Shown in pieces: positions 2 through 7,100 of a DNA stretch of 34,045 nucleotides (its first letter is position 1; every line of letters starts with the position of its first letter). The position numbers and the translations under genes are program-made. The notes beneath the pieces were generated by a model. The model did no database searches and was not told the DNA's origin. It saw only the letters and a list, made by a program, of their open reading frames with translations. The DNA comes from Clostridiales bacterium (GTDB lineage Bacteria; Bacillota; Clostridia; Christensenellales; QAND01): positions 1 to 34,045 of the forward strand of contig SVGV01000005.1 of NCBI GenBank assembly GCA_015056185.1, in the 5' to 3' direction.

Positions 2-3000
2 AATGAAAACCCTGGCCGGGTATTTACCTTTGATAACACCGCAAAAGACCTTTACGTAAAGGTGATGGATCTTGACGGCAACGAGATCCTCAATACCCTG
101 ACCGGCGAAGGTTCCGATGCACTCACCATCACTTATTACGGCATCCAGACCAACGGCAAGGTGTACAACAGTACCGACGCTCCCAAGCATGCCGGTGCCT
201 ACACCGCTGCTGCCGCCTACATTGAAAAGAATGAGGCAGGCGAGCTTCTGAAAGTTGGCTTTGGCGGAGCAGTGATGGCAATTAAACCCGCCACCTCCTC
301 CATTGAGGTACAGGATGCGGTGCATGTGTTTGACAACACCGCACTGAGCCTGAAAGACCTCATCACTGTGAAATCCGCAGTTGAGGGCATCACCCCCGAT
401 GCGACCATCATCACCGCTGCCATCGCAGCAAACCGCGATTTCAGCGTCGATGGCCTGGCTGCCATCGATGGCATGGTCAACATTGACTTCCCCAGGTTCC
501 TGGATGATGTGCTGAAAAACGTCAGCGCCCTTAAGGATGGGTACTCCACCGGTTTGCGTGTGGATGACATGATGGCCATGGTTGATGGATACGCAGAAAA
601 GCTGATCGAGCTTGGTGTACCTGAAGAGCTGATCGCAAAGCTGGAGGAGATCCTTGCTGAGCTGCCCGATCAGATCATCGTAACTTTCCACGAGCAGGCA
701 AACGTAAACCCCTACCATGTGGGCGTTTACCTTGTGGCAGGCATCGTGACCGACAGCGACCACATCCCCAGTGCTGACTTTGGCCTGGCTGTCATCGTCC
801 CCGATGGCAGGGAAGTGGACCTGGAGTTTAAGTACATTGACAGCAACAACATCTTTACGGTAGACACCATCAAAGTGGTGGATCTTGGTGCAAAGGCCAT
901 GCTGGATGGCGTGGAGTGCCCCGAGGCTACTGAACAGATCATCAACGTATTTACCGGTTTTGATGCAAACGGCAATGCTGTAGTCACGAACGACTACACT
1001 ACTTTGAAGCCCGGTGTTTACACTCAGACTTCTTATATCTACTCTGTGGCCAACCGGTTCTACTATGGTATGCCCATCAGCCGTACCATCGTGGTCAGTG
1101 CCAATATGTATACTGTTGAATTCAGAGATGGCAACGGCAACAAGAACCATGACCGCAAATTCACCTTTGACGGCAGTGAGAAATCTCTGGGCCAGGTGGT
1201 CGTATTGAACCAGTACGGCGAAGAGGTCGTCATCGATGAATTCGATACCCTTACTGTGTACTACATTGGCGTAGATACTGCTATGAACAGCTATCATGGT
1301 ACGGAGCTCCCCGTAAATGCAGGTGTATACAGCGTTGCTGCCACCTACATCGACCGGGATGAGACCGGCGCTGTCATCGGCATTGGTGCCGCTGTGGGCG
1401 CCCTGGCCATCGAACAGGCGGTTTCTGAAAGCTATCTTACCGATACCGAGGTGGTTTACGACGGCAACGAGCATCTGCCCCTTGGCGAAAACAAGGACGG
1501 CGTCAGCGCCATCGTTGCCATCCGCACTGAAGATGGTGTGAACATCATCCTCCCCGAGGCACTCAGCGAACTGGCTGAGCATCTGCCCGAAAGCGTAGAT
1601 GCAGTCAAGCTCAAGGATGCTCTTGCAAAGGCTGTGGAACTGGCAAGCAAGCTGGAGCTTTCCGAAAAACTGCTGAATAAGCTTGATGCTTTTGCTGACC
1701 TCATTGCAAAAGAACTCCCCGATGGCATTGTGACCATCGGCGGCAAGAATCCCGCTGACATTGGCAAGTACAAAGCATACGCTTTGACCTTTGCCCCCAA
1801 CTATCTGCCTGCCATTGAGGAAGCTGTTTTGACCATCAAAGCCATCGAGCTGCCCATCAGCCTTGGCGAGATGGATGTGACCTACGGCGAAGATGTGACC
1901 GCACCTGAGGCAAGCTATGATGAAGATCTGCTGCTGCCCGGTGATCAGGTAGTGGTGGAAGTCACCACCGATTACGCTGCCGGTGCCGATGCAGGTGAAT
2001 ACGAAGTAACCGTTAAAGTTACCATCGTGGATGAAAACGGTAATGATCGCAGCGAATACTATGACCTCAGCGTAGAGGGCATGGTAGAGAGCATCACCGT
2101 AAAAGCCCGTAAGGTAACCGTAACGGTGGATGACAAGACTGTTACGAAGTACGAAGCCATGCCCGTATTCACCGGTCTGGTGGAAGGCGTGCTGGCAGGA
2201 GATATCCTGAACATCACCTATAAGAGCGATGCTGTTGATACCAACACCGTGGGCGAGTTTGCCATCACGGCCGAGGTAGAAGCAAACGCCAACTACGATG
2301 TAACCGTTGTGGATGGCGTGCTGAAGGTAGAGGCCATTGAGCCTATCGAGCTGCCCATCAGCCTTGGCGAGATGGATGTGACCTACGGCGAAGATGTGTC
2401 TGCCCCTGAGGCAAGCTATGATGAAGATCTGCTGCTGCCCGGTGATCAGGTAGTGGTGGAAGTAACCACCGATTACGCTGCCGGTGCCGATGCAGGGGAA
2501 TACGAAGTAACCGTTAAAGTTACCATCGTGGATGAGAACGGCAATGATAAGAGCGAATACTATGATCTCAGCGTAGAGGGCATGGTAGAGAGCATCATCG
2601 TTAAAGCCCGCAAGGTGACCGTCACGGTGGATGACAAGACTGTTACGAAGTACGAAGCCATGCCCGTATTCACCGGTCTGGTGGAAGGCGTGCTGGCAGG
2701 AGATATCCTGAACATCACCTTTAAGAGTGATGCTGTTGATACCAACACTGTGGGCGAATTCGCCATCACGGCCGAGGTAGAAGCAAACGCCAACTACGAT
2801 GTAACCGTTGTGGATGGCGTGCTGACCATCGAAAAAGACCCCAACGAGGATATCTTTAAGGGATACCCTGTACCCCTGGGCAAGAACGACATCACCGGCG
2901 GCATCCGCGAAGGGATGGTCATCGATGTTGATGGCACCTCCTACAAGCTTGATGACACCTTAACCGCTTACTTGCCCACCAAGACCTCCAAACTGGTCAC

Positions 3001-3637
3001 TGCTTATACCTATAACAAGGTTGCGAATGACCCCCATGAGGTTTATCCCACCCATATGTATGTATGGGAGCTGACCTTCACCGGCGAAAAATACACCGCC
3101 AAGAGGATCAAAGAACTGGATGACATCATGCAGTATGCCGGCTCCTCCATCCGCATTACCGGTAAGAAGGGCATCCGCATGATCACCTCCATCCCCAAGG
3201 CCGCCAGGAACAAGCTGATCAGCAGCAATCTGGCCGGTTATAAGCTGCAGGAATACGGCACCGTTGTATACTGGGCCGACAAGGTTGAAGGTTCCGTAGT
3301 GCTGGGCGGCAAGGGCGCCATGTCCAACTACGCATACAAGCGCGGCGTGGCAGACCCCATCTTCGCTCAGAACAGCAGCGTGGTGCAGTACACCAACGTA
3401 CTGGTTGGCTTCAGCAATGCTCAGTGCAAACCTGATTTGCTCATGCGCCCCTACATGGTACTGAAGAACAGCAAGGGCGAGACTGTGACCCTCTACGGCG
3501 GCACGGTACAGCGCAGCATTGGCTACATTGCCTACCAGAACAGGAAGGTATTTAAATCCGGTACTTCTGCCTTCAGCTACATTTGGAACATCATCCACTA
3601 TGTATACGGCAACAAGTACGATGCTGATTACAGGTAA
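2..3637 (+). CDS. Large extracellular repeat protein with MBG/Ig-like repeats, 5'-truncated by the window edge
   Basis: The frame of ORF 62..3637 stays open to base 2 (NENPGRVFTFDNTAKDLYVKV upstream of the listed start), so the true start lies outside the window. It contains KARKVTVTVDDKTVTKYEAMPVFTGLVEGVLAGDIL MBG-like repeats, has no LPXTG-type tail, and ends ...HYVYGNKYDADYR. Confidence 0.8.
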   Translation, partial: NENPGRVFTFDNTAKDLYVKVMDLDGNEILNTLTGEGSDALTITYYGIQTNGKVYNSTDAPKHAGAYTAAAAYIEKNEAGELLKVGFGGAVMAIKPATSSIEVQDAVHVFDNTALSLKDLITVKSAVEGITPDATIITAAIAANRDFSVDGLAAIDGMVNIDFPRFLDDVLKNVSALKDGYSTGLRVDDMMAMVDGYAEKLIELGVPEELIAKLEEILAELPDQIIVTFHEQANVNPYHVGVYLVAGIVTDSDHIPSADFGLAVIVPDGREVDLEFKYIDSNNIFTVDTIKVVDLGAKAMLDGVECPEATEQIINVFTGFDANGNAVVTNDYTTLKPGVYTQTSYIYSVANRFYYGMPISRTIVVSANMYTVEFRDGNGNKNHDRKFTFDGSEKSLGQVVVLNQYGEEVVIDEFDTLTVYYIGVDTAMNSYHGTELPVNAGVYSVAATYIDRDETGAVIGIGAAVGALAIEQAVSESYLTDTEVVYDGNEHLPLGENKDGVSAIVAIRTEDGVNIILPEALSELAEHLPESVDAVKLKDALAKAVELASKLELSEKLLNKLDAFADLIAKELPDGIVTIGGKNPADIGKYKAYALTFAPNYLPAIEEAVLTIKAIELPISLGEMDVTYGEDVTAPEASYDEDLLLPGDQVVVEVTTDYAAGADAGEYEVTVKVTIVDENGNDRSEYYDLSVEGMVESITVKARKVTVTVDDKTVTKYEAMPVFTGLVEGVLAGDILNITYKSDAVDTNTVGEFAITAEVEANANYDVTVVDGVLKVEAIEPIELPISLGEMDVTYGEDVSAPEASYDEDLLLPGDQVVVEVTTDYAAGADAGEYEVTVKVTIVDENGNDKSEYYDLSVEGMVESIIVKARKVTVTVDDKTVTKYEAMPVFTGLVEGVLAGDILNITFKSDAVDTNTVGEFAITAEVEANANYDVTVVDGVLTIEKDPNEDIFKGYPVPLGKNDITGGIREGMVIDVDGTSYKLDDTLTAYLPTKTSKLVTAYTYNKVANDPHEVYPTHMYVWELTFTGEKYTAKRIKELDDIMQYAGSSIRITGKKGIRMITSIPKAARNKLISSNLAGYKLQEYGTVVYWADKVEGSVVLGGKGAMSNYAYKRGVADPIFAQNSSVVQYTNVLVGFSNAQCKPDLLMRPYMVLKNSKGETVTLYGGTVQRSIGYIAYQNRKVFKSGTSAFSYIWNIIHYVYGNKYDADYR
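1844..2824 (+). repeat. Two near-identical tandem copies (unit about 501 bp / 167 aa) inside the surface protein gene
   Basis: ATCGAGCTGCCCATCAGCCTTGGCGAGATGGATGTGACC occurs at 1844 and again at 2345, with IELPISLGEMDVTYGEDV...NANYDVTVVDGVL repeated with only a few substitutions. The second copy ends around 2824. Confidence 0.93.
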
Positions 3638-3652: not shown

Positions 3653-4729
3653 ATGAATCGGAAACGAACTGTCATCATTTGCCTGGTACTTTGCCTGCTG
3701 CTCATTGGCGGTATTGTACTGATGAACCTGAAACCCCAGGAAAATGCACCTGTTGAACCCCCCAAGGCCGAGGTGGAATACCAGATCGGCCTTGCCCGGG
3801 GCTATTACGGATGTGCCCTTTACACCACTTTTGAGCGCGGCGATGAAGTGGAAGTAGTAGGGGAGTTACGGGATTTTTATGTGATCGCCGGGGAAAAAGT
3901 GAACCTGCTGATCGAAAAGCGCTTTTTGCGCCCCGAAACCGAGGCGGCTCCCGGTGAATCCGACGGATACACCAAAGCCGGCACCTCTGTTTACAGCACT
4001 GCTTATCTGCGGGGCGAAGCCATTGCCAGCCTTGGCAAAAACACCAAGATCCGCGTGCTGGATAAAAAGGCCGGCTGGATGATGATCGAATGGGAAGGCG
4101 GCACCGGGTTTATCTCTTCCGGTCAGTACAGCAAAAACTATATTCAGGCGCCCAAACCCAGCAAGCCCAGCAACAACGGCCCCCAGGATGGCGGTGACAT
4201 CGTACTGGATTCCTCCGATCTGTCTTTGGATGTTACCCCCATCGGTACCTATCTTGGACCGGAGTACGGCGAGTTTGAAGCCTGCAAAGGCACCATCCTT
4301 TCCCCTGAAACGGAAGCTTATTTGTACCTTTACGATCGGGATGAAGAAGTAAAGGTGACCGAGGTTGGCGAAGAGGAATGTACCGTATACTTTGAAGATG
4401 ACCTCTTTGCAAAGCTGCCCCGCTATTTGGTATGGCTTGAGGGCGACGAAGAGTATGAATCCTGGGAAGGCTACGCAGCAGAAGGAGCAGCGGTGTATTC
4501 TGAATTGCAGAAATGGCATAGCGATAAGAAGCTCAAACGAAATGATCGCGTAACGGTCATCGATGAACTGCCCACCTGCTATGTGGTGGAGATCGATGGT
4601 GAGATCGGCTATATGGCGATCTCCGGCGTATCCAAAACGGAGATCAAAGTGAAGCCCAGCAGCGGCGGCGGTAACTCCGGCGGCGGTGGCTTCGGCGGTG
4701 GCGGAGAATGGACGCCCCCCGCACTGTAA
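3653..4729 (+). CDS. N-terminally membrane-anchored protein with multiple SH3b-like repeats and a Gly-rich C-terminal tail
   Basis: 358 aa. N-terminal TM MNRKRTVIICLVLCLLLIGGIVLMN. SH3b-like segment KAGTSVYSTAYLRGEAIASLGKNTKIRVLDKKAGWMMIEWEGGTGFI. Tail SSGGGNSGGGGFGGGGEWTPPAL. AAGGAGG Shine-Dalgarno just upstream. Confidence 0.75.
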   Translation: MNRKRTVIICLVLCLLLIGGIVLMNLKPQENAPVEPPKAEVEYQIGLARGYYGCALYTTFERGDEVEVVGELRDFYVIAGEKVNLLIEKRFLRPETEAAPGESDGYTKAGTSVYSTAYLRGEAIASLGKNTKIRVLDKKAGWMMIEWEGGTGFISSGQYSKNYIQAPKPSKPSNNGPQDGGDIVLDSSDLSLDVTPIGTYLGPEYGEFEACKGTILSPETEAYLYLYDRDEEVKVTEVGEEECTVYFEDDLFAKLPRYLVWLEGDEEYESWEGYAAEGAAVYSELQKWHSDKKLKRNDRVTVIDELPTCYVVEIDGEIGYMAISGVSKTEIKVKPSSGGGNSGGGGFGGGGEWTPPAL

Positions 4730-4740
4730 AAAGAGAAACA

Positions 4741-4780
4741 AAAAGGGTAAGAAGATCATCTTCTTACCCTTTTGTTTTAT
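4741..4780. terminator. Bidirectional intrinsic terminator between convergent genes
   Basis: Perfect inverted repeat AAAAGGGTAAGAAGAT / ATCTTCTTACCCTTTT (4741-4756 / 4758-4773), followed by a T-rich stretch and A-rich on the other side. Confidence 0.85.
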
Positions 4781-4783
4781 GAT

Positions 4784-5668
4784 TCATTCTGTATCTTCTT
4801 CTAATTGAACCTTGTATGCCCGGATCGCATTTGTGCCGGTGCGCATCATGCAGATGGAGATCACCACGATGGTCAGGTAAACCGCTGTGCCTGTTGTAAT
4901 GTTCATATAGTTCTGCAAGGGTCCGCCATCACCGAACTCGCTGAACATAGCGATCTGCAAAAAGAAGATGGATACCAATGCGGTGGAAAAGGCGAGGATC
5001 TTGCTGGCGGAGTAGATGGGATTGCGCAGCCTGCGGTACCGGATCAAATTGTAGATGGCCATGGAAAGGTTGTAAAAGGTAAACGCAGCCGCCCCATAGA
5101 TGAGAAAGCCGGGGTATTCGATCACCTGATTTTTTGCAATGGCGTAGTAGCTGACGGAGCTAAGGGCAACGGTCAGCACAAACAAAAGGAACCCGTACAG
5201 ACGATACCTTTGGTAGTCGCTTACGGGGCTGATCTTTGCTTTGCGGGTGTGGGTAAACAGCAAACAGCGCATAACGACCAATATAATATAGTAAAATGCA
5301 ACGGATCCAAACCAAATGGAACGGTAGTAGATGGCTGCAAGGGATTTCAGCGCGCAGAATAAGACGGTTATACCAAGGGAAATGCGGATGGAAACCTCCG
5401 CCTTAAAATGCAGGTCGGTTTGGTACCGGGCAAAAAAGGTGTTTTGATGCAGCCGGTTTCTTAGTTTTTTAAAAAGGAAAAATGCCCTGATCGAAAGAAT
5501 GATAAGGGCATAGAAAGAAACGGTGTAAATGGAATAGGCGGGAATGGTCTTTTCCCACCCATTCACAAACACCATGATCAATGCTGCACTGCATAGTGCC
5601 GAAAGCAGTAAAACGATGATCCAGTGGGGGTGCAAAGCCTTTTTGAGGCCCTGAATGAATCGGGACAT
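4784..5668 (-). CDS. Polytopic membrane protein of unknown function
   Basis: 294 aa with several hydrophobic segments (WIIVLLLSALCSAALIMVFV, AIYYRSIWFGSVAFYYIILVVM, LYGFLLFVLTVALSSVSYYAIA, TAVYLTIVVISICMM). Follows the two small ORFs of the same operon. Confidence 0.75.
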   Translation of the reverse strand: MSRFIQGLKKALHPHWIIVLLLSALCSAALIMVFVNGWEKTIPAYSIYTVSFYALIILSIRAFFLFKKLRNRLHQNTFFARYQTDLHFKAEVSIRISLGITVLFCALKSLAAIYYRSIWFGSVAFYYIILVVMRCLLFTHTRKAKISPVSDYQRYRLYGFLLFVLTVALSSVSYYAIAKNQVIEYPGFLIYGAAAFTFYNLSMAIYNLIRYRRLRNPIYSASKILAFSTALVSIFFLQIAMFSEFGDGGPLQNYMNITTGTAVYLTIVVISICMMRTGTNAIRAYKVQLEEDTE

Positions 5669-5678
5669 GTTAAATAAC

Positions 5679-6050
5679 CTACTTTAATCTTTTATAAAGG
5701 GGGATGAGGGAGAGCAGCATCAGCATGCCGATCAGTCCTACGATGATGCCCCAGATCATCATCCCCTCAAACACCATGGTCATACAGAGGCCGGTGCCGA
5801 AGGTCAAAACACCCAAGATCAACAATGCGACGGATACGGCAGTGCGCTTATCGAAGGAAAACATCCCTTTTCCCTGCATTTTGCGCCGCACCAAAAGGGT
5901 GATCAGCAGTGTTACAATGCCCACGATACCCAAAATGACACCCTGCTGAAATGCATTCCATTCAGGGATGAGGCACATGCACATACCTAAGGAAAACAGC
6001 ACAGCGCCGATGGTGGCTAATACCAATGTTACATAGTTTTCGCGCTTCAT
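5679..6050 (-). CDS. Small four-TM membrane protein of unknown function
   Basis: 123 aa with about four hydrophobic helices (VTLVLATIGAVLFSLGMCMCLI, GVILGIVGIVTLLITLLV, TAVSVALLILGVLTFGTGLCM, MMIWGIIVGLIGMLMLLSLIPL). Tightly spaced with its neighbours. Confidence 0.75.
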   Translation of the reverse strand: MKRENYVTLVLATIGAVLFSLGMCMCLIPEWNAFQQGVILGIVGIVTLLITLLVRRKMQGKGMFSFDKRTAVSVALLILGVLTFGTGLCMTMVFEGMMIWGIIVGLIGMLMLLSLIPLYKRLK

Positions 6051-6052
6051 AG

Positions 6053-6286
6053 TTATTTGACTCCGTTGTTCTTGATCTGCTCATTTAAGCGGGCACGGGC
6101 ATCTTCCGCGGTTTCGCCCTCTTTCGTTAAAAAGGTATCGATGAACTTATCTTCGATCTTTTTATAGCCGGATACCACACCGTCTTCGATCTTCTGATAG
6201 CCGGAAACAACGCCGGTCTCGATTCTTTTATAGCCTTCAACAACGGTATTTGCGATCTTCTGATTGGTTTCTTTTACGCTAGACAT
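6053..6286 (-). CDS. Small 11-residue-repeat protein of unknown function
   Basis: 77 aa. Tandem undecads TNQKIANTVVE / GYKRIETGVVS / GYQKIEDGVVS / GYKKIEDKFID. AGGAGG Shine-Dalgarno (minus strand) around 6292-6297. Confidence 0.8.
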   Translation of the reverse strand: MSSVKETNQKIANTVVEGYKRIETGVVSGYQKIEDGVVSGYKKIEDKFIDTFLTKEGETAEDARARLNEQIKNNGVK

Positions 6287-6311
6287 GAAAAATCCTCCTT
6301 TAACTCAACAC

Positions 6312-6340
6312 TTGTTTATGATTGTGATTAAGAGTATAAT
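6312..6340 (+). promoter_or_regulatory. Promoter for the tetR-family gene
   Basis: TTGTTT (6312-6317)-N17-TATAAT (6335-6340). The -10 overlaps the minus-strand -10. Confidence 0.65.
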
Positions 6341-6348
6341 CTTCACAA
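6322..6348. promoter_or_regulatory. Candidate operator for the TetR-family regulator
   Basis: Inverted repeat TTGTGA(6322-6327)-N15-TCACAA(6343-6348) centred on the two overlapping -10 boxes. Confidence 0.4.
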
Positions 6349-6361
6349 AATCAGACGACAA
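6333..6361 (-). promoter_or_regulatory. Promoter for the leftward three-gene operon
   Basis: On the minus strand TTGTCG (6356-6361)-N17-TATACT (6333-6338), about 45 nt upstream of the 6286 start codon. Confidence 0.6.
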
Positions 6362-6403
6362 TCATCAATATCAAAACAATTGTTGGTTTAATGAGAGGGA
6401 AGT

Positions 6404-6967
6404 ATGAACACACCCAATAACAAACGGCGCAAAGAATCCAGAAACAAGATCGAATCGGAGTTCATCAGAATGCTGCAGGAACAGGAGCTTTCTGAGATTA
6501 CGGTAACGGATATCTGTAAGCGTGCAAGCGTAAACCGCACGACTTTTTATGCCAACTATCTGGATGTTTACGATTTGGCCGAAGCGGTGCAAACAAGGCT
6601 GGAAGAAGAGGTTTTGGATCTCTATCGGGATGAACTGGAGCAGAAACATGGCAATAAAAACTTCTTAAAGCTGTTTTACCACATCAAGGAGAACCCCATC
6701 TTCTATAAAACCTATTTCAAACTGAACTCCTCCAAAGGGTTCCGCTTTGTAGGGTATGATCTGGAATTCGCAGAGATGCGCTTTGATAACCGGTTTATTG
6801 AGTACCATATCGAGTTCTTCGGTAATGGGCTGAACGCGGTCATCAGAAAATGGCTGCAAAACGATTGCAGAGAGACCCCTGAGGAGATTTTTGAGATCAT
6901 CAAGTCAGAATATAATGGGGTGACCCTTATTAAACTCACCAATGATTTGGAAGCAAAGTCGCATTAG
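6404..6967 (+). CDS. TetR/AcrR-family transcriptional regulator
   Basis: N-terminal HTH IESEFIRMLQEQELSEITVTDICKRASVNRTTFYANYLDVYDLAEAV is a typical TetR_N. Confidence 0.88.
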   Translation: MNTPNNKRRKESRNKIESEFIRMLQEQELSEITVTDICKRASVNRTTFYANYLDVYDLAEAVQTRLEEEVLDLYRDELEQKHGNKNFLKLFYHIKENPIFYKTYFKLNSSKGFRFVGYDLEFAEMRFDNRFIEYHIEFFGNGLNAVIRKWLQNDCRETPEEIFEIIKSEYNGVTLIKLTNDLEAKSH

Positions 6968-7013: not shown

Positions 7014-7100
7014 GCCGCTGTGGTGGAATCGGCAGACACAAGGGACTTAAAATCCCTCGGGGGCAACTCCGTATCGGTTCAAGTCCGATCAGCGGCACCA
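7014..7100 (+). tRNA. tRNA-Leu (anticodon UAA)
   Basis: Acceptor GCCGCTG/CAGCGGC. Anticodon arm AGGGA-CTTAAAA-TCCCT. Long variable arm. T-arm GGTTCAAGTCC. Encoded ACCA 3' end. Confidence 0.95.

Follow-up and report, generated by a model that had tools for sequence, protein, structure and literature searches.

A conserved TetR-linked operon of gut Clostridia and Bacilli that may protect the membrane with a transporter fold lacking metal-site residues

In this study, we analyzed a stretch of 34,045 nucleotides from a Clostridiales bacterium (hereafter, the window means this whole stretch) and found a compact three-gene operon that diverges from a TetR-family gene and recurs in many other genomes. 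Its products are a small protein made of 11-residue repeats (REP) and two membrane proteins (TM4 and TM7), the larger of which is predicted to have the fold of CDF transporters without their metal-site residues. The best explanation, for which we consider the grounds for belief and for doubt about equal, is that the operon and its regulator form a ligand-released, autoregulated module that protects the membrane. The initial annotation regarded the module as membrane-associated and induced by stress or a ligand, which is a reasonable inference from what we observed. It is a more tentative idea that we are dealing with an undescribed membrane-protection machine, in which a metal-blind CDF-fold scaffold would carry a detachable amphipathic helix of 11-residue repeats in place of the cytoplasmic domain, under interchangeable TetR, two-component or AraC regulators in gut Clostridia and Bacilli, and with REP alone in Bacteroidales.

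Organization of the locus

All four open reading frames of the initial annotation were recovered at the same coordinates. The operon lies on the minus strand and consists, in order, of REP (6053-6286; 77 aa, 11-residue repeats followed by a conserved tail), TM4 (5679-6050; 123 aa, two related hydrophobic hairpins) and TM7 (4784-5668; a 294-aa polytopic membrane protein with a CDF/ZnT-like six-helix core), and the intergenic gaps of 2 and 10 nt were found again. The divergent tetR gene (6404-6967, plus strand) encodes a TetR family repressor of 187 aa, which has a TetR_C_8 domain and is DhaS-like. The start calls of tetR and REP were consistent with homologs or with an upstream signal: the TetR N-terminus MNTPNNKRR is near-invariant among homologs, and an AGGAGG is located 7 nt upstream of the REP ATG. 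The terminator thought to close the operon is also present, as a predicted intrinsic terminator with a 15-bp stem at 4741-4773; it acts in both directions and is therefore shared with the convergent gene of an SH3-domain protein (3653-4729).

Regarding the surroundings, a tRNA-Leu(UAA) gene is located at 7014-7100, directly downstream of tetR. Near the start of the window, a large repetitive protein with four MBG_2 domains (62-3637) is followed by the above SH3-domain protein, which has an N-terminal hydrophobic segment; the two are probably a pair of surface proteins.

Regulator, operators and promoters

The regulator matched the Pfam family TetR_C_8 with 41.9 bits (cut-off, 26.1), and its TetR_N match was below threshold (15.5 vs 24 bits). 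Profile comparison matched it to TetR structures, among which the DhaS-type regulators were the nearest solved ones. The window TetR shared 23-60% identity with 33 homologs at equivalent loci. Cys155 was found in 34 out of 34 sequences, and Cys38 and His135 were near-invariant; the invariant Cys155 may hint at electrophile or redox sensing, and the three residues together at a possible thiol-based mechanism.

The gap between tetR and REP contains two putative operator dyads of the form CAACA-N2-TGTTG, which are inverted copies exactly 68 bp apart. Candidate operator B (6300-6317, plus strand; core dyad CAACACTTGTTT at 6306-6317) overlaps the tetR -35 element and is located just downstream of the REP -10 element, and candidate operator A (6374-6391, minus strand; core dyad at 6374-6385) is located upstream of the REP -35 element and in the tetR leader. 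The predicted promoter of REP-TM4-TM7 (6333-6361, minus strand; TTGTCG-17-TATACT) keeps its position relative to the operators in homologs, where it usually reads TTGTTT-17-TATACT, and the arrangement of the predicted tetR promoter (6312-6340, plus strand; TTGTTT-17-TATAAT) is repeated in homologous gaps. The two -10 elements overlap on opposite strands, and the divergent promoters are flanked by the two dyads. Each dyad thus lies immediately beyond the start point of one promoter and, relative to the other promoter, at its -35 element or above it, which would explain the fixed spacing. Such placement predicts that TetR represses both its own gene and the REP operon.

The distance between dyads was exactly 68 bp in 21 of the 36 tetR gaps and 67-69 bp in 25. 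We paired the dyads by their symmetric core together with a distance rule, a good pair being one in which both dyads reached at least 8/10. Good pairs at 67-69 bp were present in 22 of the 36 gaps and in none of 7200 shuffles, and among hold-out loci from genomes outside the motif definition a pair was identified in 9 out of 10, compared with 1 of 500 shuffled loci. When the 1.47-Mb genome was searched with the pattern, only the two dyads described here, both with zero mismatches, had fewer than three; TetR therefore looks like a local regulator. On the basis of these conserved operators, promoters and gene neighborhoods, the initial proposal of a TetR-controlled operon is strongly supported, and it is very probable that TetR controls REP-TM4-TM7.

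Occurrence of the module in sequenced genomes

To date, our scan of 84,980 species genomes has yielded 108 REP relatives, 80 of which were retained as loci, mostly in metagenome-assembled genomes of gut Clostridia and Bacilli and also in some Bacteroidales. For 81 loci, window included, we then compared gene maps and the results of iterated profiles for all four proteins; some of the loci are near-duplicates, and all counts refer to loci rather than independent events. REP had a TM4 relative beside it in 52 of the 81 loci, and TM7 was present in 41. We counted a divergent TetR for 32 loci, a number that leaves out a few further loci with a TetR frame overlapping REP. Two-component genes stood in for TetR in 17 loci, 13 of which had both TM4 and TM7. 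An AraC-type regulator was divergent or nearby in 10 loci, mainly of Bacteroidales and without membrane genes. These AraC-linked Bacteroidales loci (L043, L039, L041, L048, L049, L060, L064, L066 and L071) place REP in a second phylum, without its membrane partners.

The commonest arrangement, observed in 23 loci, is that of the window, namely a divergent TetR with TM4 and TM7, and in some of these the gene order is TM4-TM7-REP. In the second arrangement (TM4-REP-RR-HK-TM7-TM4-like), a response regulator and a histidine kinase replace TetR, and the TM7 gene directly follows, and often overlaps, that of the kinase. REP and TM4 were also found without TM7 in many loci. Hence, the gene-neighborhood survey bore out a conserved association with TetR across divergent genomes. 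Such co-inheritance recurs in dozens of them and is therefore not due to chance, and the presence of interchangeable regulators before the same proteins implies a common stimulus-driven output.

In single-sequence searches REP was patchy: 8 out of 399 genomes from the phylum contained it, as did 11 out of 297 from the order, a count that includes the window genome. The family is represented by two other genomes, and neither REP nor TM7 was found in them. The GC content of the operon plus tetR (4784-6967) is 0.453, compared with 0.526 in the remaining window; this AT-richer composition, together with the absence of REP and TM7 from both other family genomes, suggests that operon and tetR were acquired horizontally. 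As for other roles, mobile cargo was rejected, as no REP homolog was found in plasmid or phage collections, and so was an anti-phage defense system, as the PADLOC models gave no match.

We also examined the genes next to REP and TM4 relatives. A cardiolipin synthase gene adjoins REP in four loci (L045, L073, L079 and L081), that of L079 scoring above the TIGR04265 cut-off. Lantibiotic-protection-type ABC ATPases with ABC-2-like permeases were present in L024, L044, L079 and L081, an FtsX/MacB-type pair with its own two-component system lies beside the TetR version in L008, and OmpR-type two-component systems also occur among the neighbors. Judged by their neighbors, REP and TM4 relatives appear to be linked to the envelope. 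There is a report of a two-component system that senses the envelope and induces cardiolipin synthase (PMC8144471). In the Bacillus anthracis EdsRS paper, a term search for accessory membrane genes gave no match. Inside REP/TM4/ABC clusters there are further genes for small hydrophobic or amphipathic proteins without an assignment, and one for a putative lipoprotein (L044, 5735-5998 and 6495-6710; L079, 7932-8195; L014, 5329-5556).

Other loci have quite different partners. A 3beta-HSD/epimerase-like (HpnA-like) reductase accompanies REP in L025 (3931-5279) and L038 (1961-3277), which also lie beside the same TetR type, and is fused to it in L046/L051 (1-1120); this partner may be a clue to the class of the TetR ligand. 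Sugar transporter and glycosidase genes (MFS/GH1) were found with REP in L047 and L069, and outer-membrane-type genes lie beside it in Bacteroidales. Considering such partners, a metabolite might be what TetR senses, and the role of REP might be that of a general accessory.

TM7 as a predicted pseudo-CDF

According to the initial annotation, none of the three products had an assignable motif. This held for REP and TM4 but not for TM7, in which profiles and structure prediction revealed a CDF/ZnT fold. The description of TM7 as polytopic was correct and could be refined to eight transmembrane helices, arranged in the AF2 model (pLDDT 90.1) as a two-helix N-terminal hairpin and a six-helix core. 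When this model was compared with the PDB by Foldseek, ranks 1-29 were all CDF proteins (prob 1.00, TM about 0.53), with individual E-values of only about 1e-3; for a second model, of a fusion homolog, ranks 1-20 were all CDF as well. By hhalign, the TM7 family matched 30 genuine CDF proteins of related genomes with a prob of 95.7 and an E-value of 8.9e-9, compared with 0.012 for an unrelated membrane family used as control. PF01545 (Cation_efflux) was matched by 12 of the 36 TM7 homologs at E < 0.1 (best, 2.9e-7), and among ten members scored individually L040 reached exactly 26.6 bits, the Cation_efflux gathering score, over nearly the full profile. The window TM7 alone matched neither Cation_efflux nor any other family. 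Because a sequence-profile search against PDB chains was also empty, the fold assignment rests on Pfam cross-hits, HMM-HMM alignment and structure comparison, from which TM7 very probably has a CDF fold. DUF4271 was rejected for TM7, since its score of 21 bits was below the cut-off of 29.7 and it was absent from other members. The family checks by Foldseek and HMMs thus left a single match, at the level of the fold and with the active site lost.

In CDF proteins, metal site A is formed by BxxxB pairs (H/D/N/E) in TM2 and TM5, and none of the 36 TM7 homologs keeps either pair. The corresponding positions are Y126, L130, L225 and T229 in the window, and Y/F, L, I/L/T and small or polar residues in all 36 sequences. 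The ferredoxin-like cytosolic C-terminal domain is absent from TM7 too, the protein stopping shortly after TM6. Since the site-A residues and the cytoplasmic domain are both missing, TM7 is, judging from its sequence, a pseudo-CDF that would keep the CDF fold but not the metal chemistry that goes with it.

In five distinct loci (L012, L021, L114, L121 and L125), TM7 and REP are fused in an uninterrupted frame. The fusion point is the TM7 C-terminus, with REP where the CDF C-terminal domain would be. CDF topology and the positive-inside loop pattern place this terminus in the cytoplasm, and the REP part of the fusions should therefore be located at the inner face of the membrane.

REP and TM4

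The REP repeat has the consensus VVxGYKKIEDG, usually in two or three clear units, and is followed by a conserved tail (KFVDxFLTKEGETxEDAxxRL). The 11-residue period noticed at first was borne out, with DNA copies spaced 33 and 33, and 109 of 116 successive spacings in 81 homologs were exactly 11 residues. For the repeat region, the maximum of the hydrophobic moment falls at 97.1 degrees, near the 11/3-helix angle of 98.2 degrees, and was not equaled by any of 10000 shuffles. REP is a modest amphipath with a net charge near zero. In the AF2 model of a natural TM7-REP fusion, it forms one 58-residue helix followed by a short one, with a confidence of about 69-84 in the repeat part and about 91-96 in the tail. 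These features are compatible with one long amphipathic helix on the membrane surface and equally compatible with a hendecad coiled coil.

No Pfam, NCBIfam or PADLOC family matched REP above threshold, and homology to PspA/IM30 or LiaH was not found in these three collections; a sub-threshold match to SLIDE (E 0.09) was probably due to chance. A literature search did not find the REP repeat strings, and on 11-residue repeats and CDF loss it returned only general material. TM4 contains the hairpin motifs GMCMCLIPEWN and GLCMTMVFEG, and its only Pfam matches were scattered, below threshold and different between members. Both REP and TM4 thus appear to be without a characterized or curated family.

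Proposed function and alternative explanations

In the membrane-protection model, TetR would in the resting state occupy the two dyads, 68 bp apart, and silence tetR as well as REP-TM4-TM7, until a small compound, probably hydrophobic or reactive, releases it. REP would then be made and would settle on the membrane from the cytoplasmic side as one long amphipathic helix of the 11/3 type. By analogy with the fusions, the cytoplasmic C-terminus of TM7 could also hold unfused REP, at the place where ordinary CDFs have their C-terminal domain. TM7 would serve as a transport-inactive CDF scaffold and TM4 as its small partner, and the three proteins together might counter the compound by coating, bracing or remodeling the membrane, on a working principle like that of LiaI-LiaH/PspA with unrelated parts.

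The main rival to this model, which we regard as rather unlikely, is an export pump, in which TM7 would export an organic, non-metal substrate on its CDF scaffold with TM4 and REP as accessory subunits. TetR genes are most commonly found beside the gene of a protein with a transporter fold. The window locus has this layout, as in many TetR-efflux pairs, the TM7 core has all six CDF helices, and some loci have detoxification-type neighbors. However, conserved charged or His residues were not found in the membrane parts of the modeled TM7 helices, and the acid-rich columns lie at helix ends or in loops, so that an obvious site for proton or substrate coupling is absent; in addition, many loci have REP and TM4 but lack TM7.

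An improbable alternative is that REP is a portable tag or stabilizer on varied TetR, AraC and two-component regulons, the membrane genes being just one set of clients. Its association or fusion with the epimerase-like reductase would fit this explanation, and so would the MFS/GH1 and Bacteroidales outer-membrane-type partners. Against it, most REP loci also contain a relative of TM4, of TM7 or of both, and fusions with TM7 are the commonest of those seen. It is hardly probable, too, that the locus is a signal relay with TM7 and TM4 as membrane sensors feeding the adjacent regulator and REP as a cytoplasmic linker. Although the position of TM7 after the histidine kinase gene and that of REP at the TM7 C-terminus in fusions could be read in this way, a one-component TetR requires no membrane sensor, the TetR version places the membrane genes under TetR as output rather than input, and REP also accompanies AraC and unrelated enzymes. 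Finally, metal homeostasis by TM7 as a divergent but working CDF transporter, which the fold and profile similarity might suggest, is very improbable and was rejected as the leading view, considering that site A is lost in 36 out of 36 sequences together with the cytoplasmic domain, that the same genome encodes an ordinary CDF elsewhere, and that ZnT6, having lost its BxxxB motif, does not transport zinc (PMC10932157).

If the membrane-protection model is true, this conserved, self-contained and inducible module would brace the membrane in a new way, with an inactive transporter fold and an 11-mer helix, and a transporter fold would have been recruited to a non-transport job. Gut Firmicutes are exposed to bile acids, to drugs and to peptides of host and bacterial origin, and little work has been done on the systems with which they respond to envelope stress. 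Because the operators are conserved, a reporter should allow direct screening for the inducer.

Comparison with known systems

The closest functional precedent is LiaI-LiaH/PspA, as in the LiaRS system of Bacillus subtilis, which is likewise an inducible small operon for an amphipathic helical soluble protein and a small membrane partner (PMC8144471). LiaH is anchored at the membrane by LiaI (PMC8144471), and the TM7-REP fusions are suggestive of the same principle of recruitment by a membrane partner. In contrast with LiaH and PspA, REP is built of 11-residue repeats, and homology to Lia/Psp proteins was not found; the regulator of the window is a TetR, and the large membrane partner has a predicted CDF fold.

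TM7 has the six-helix transmembrane core of CDF proteins (YiiP, ZnT1/7/8; PF01545), as judged from profiles, HMM-HMM alignment and structure comparison. It differs from them in lacking the site-A residues and the ferredoxin-like C-terminal domain, which REP replaces in the fusions, and in the extra N-terminal hairpin of its long form. ZnT6 is also a CDF protein without the BxxxB metal motif (PMC10932157), but it is a eukaryotic zinc-transporter paralog, whereas TM7 is bacterial and belongs, with REP and TM4, to an operon family of its own. The nearest characterized relatives of the window TetR are the DhaS-type regulators (TIGR02366, 2iu5 and 4mk6); it scored far under the DhaS equivalog cut-off of TIGR02366 (44.4 vs 129 bits), and unlike DhaS-type systems its locus has no dihydroxyacetone kinase genes and has conserved operators of its own. 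The 11-mer amphipathic helices of synuclein and perilipin have the same periodicity (11/3 helix) as REP, a likeness for which we claim no homology; the REP consensus VVxGYKKIEDG and tail are unlike KTKEGV, and the computed moment was 0.43 for REP vs 0.25 for a textbook synuclein stretch. To the extent that the tools used here can show it, both the components and the way they are combined are new; the regulator itself is an ordinary one, and there are precedents for how the module would work.
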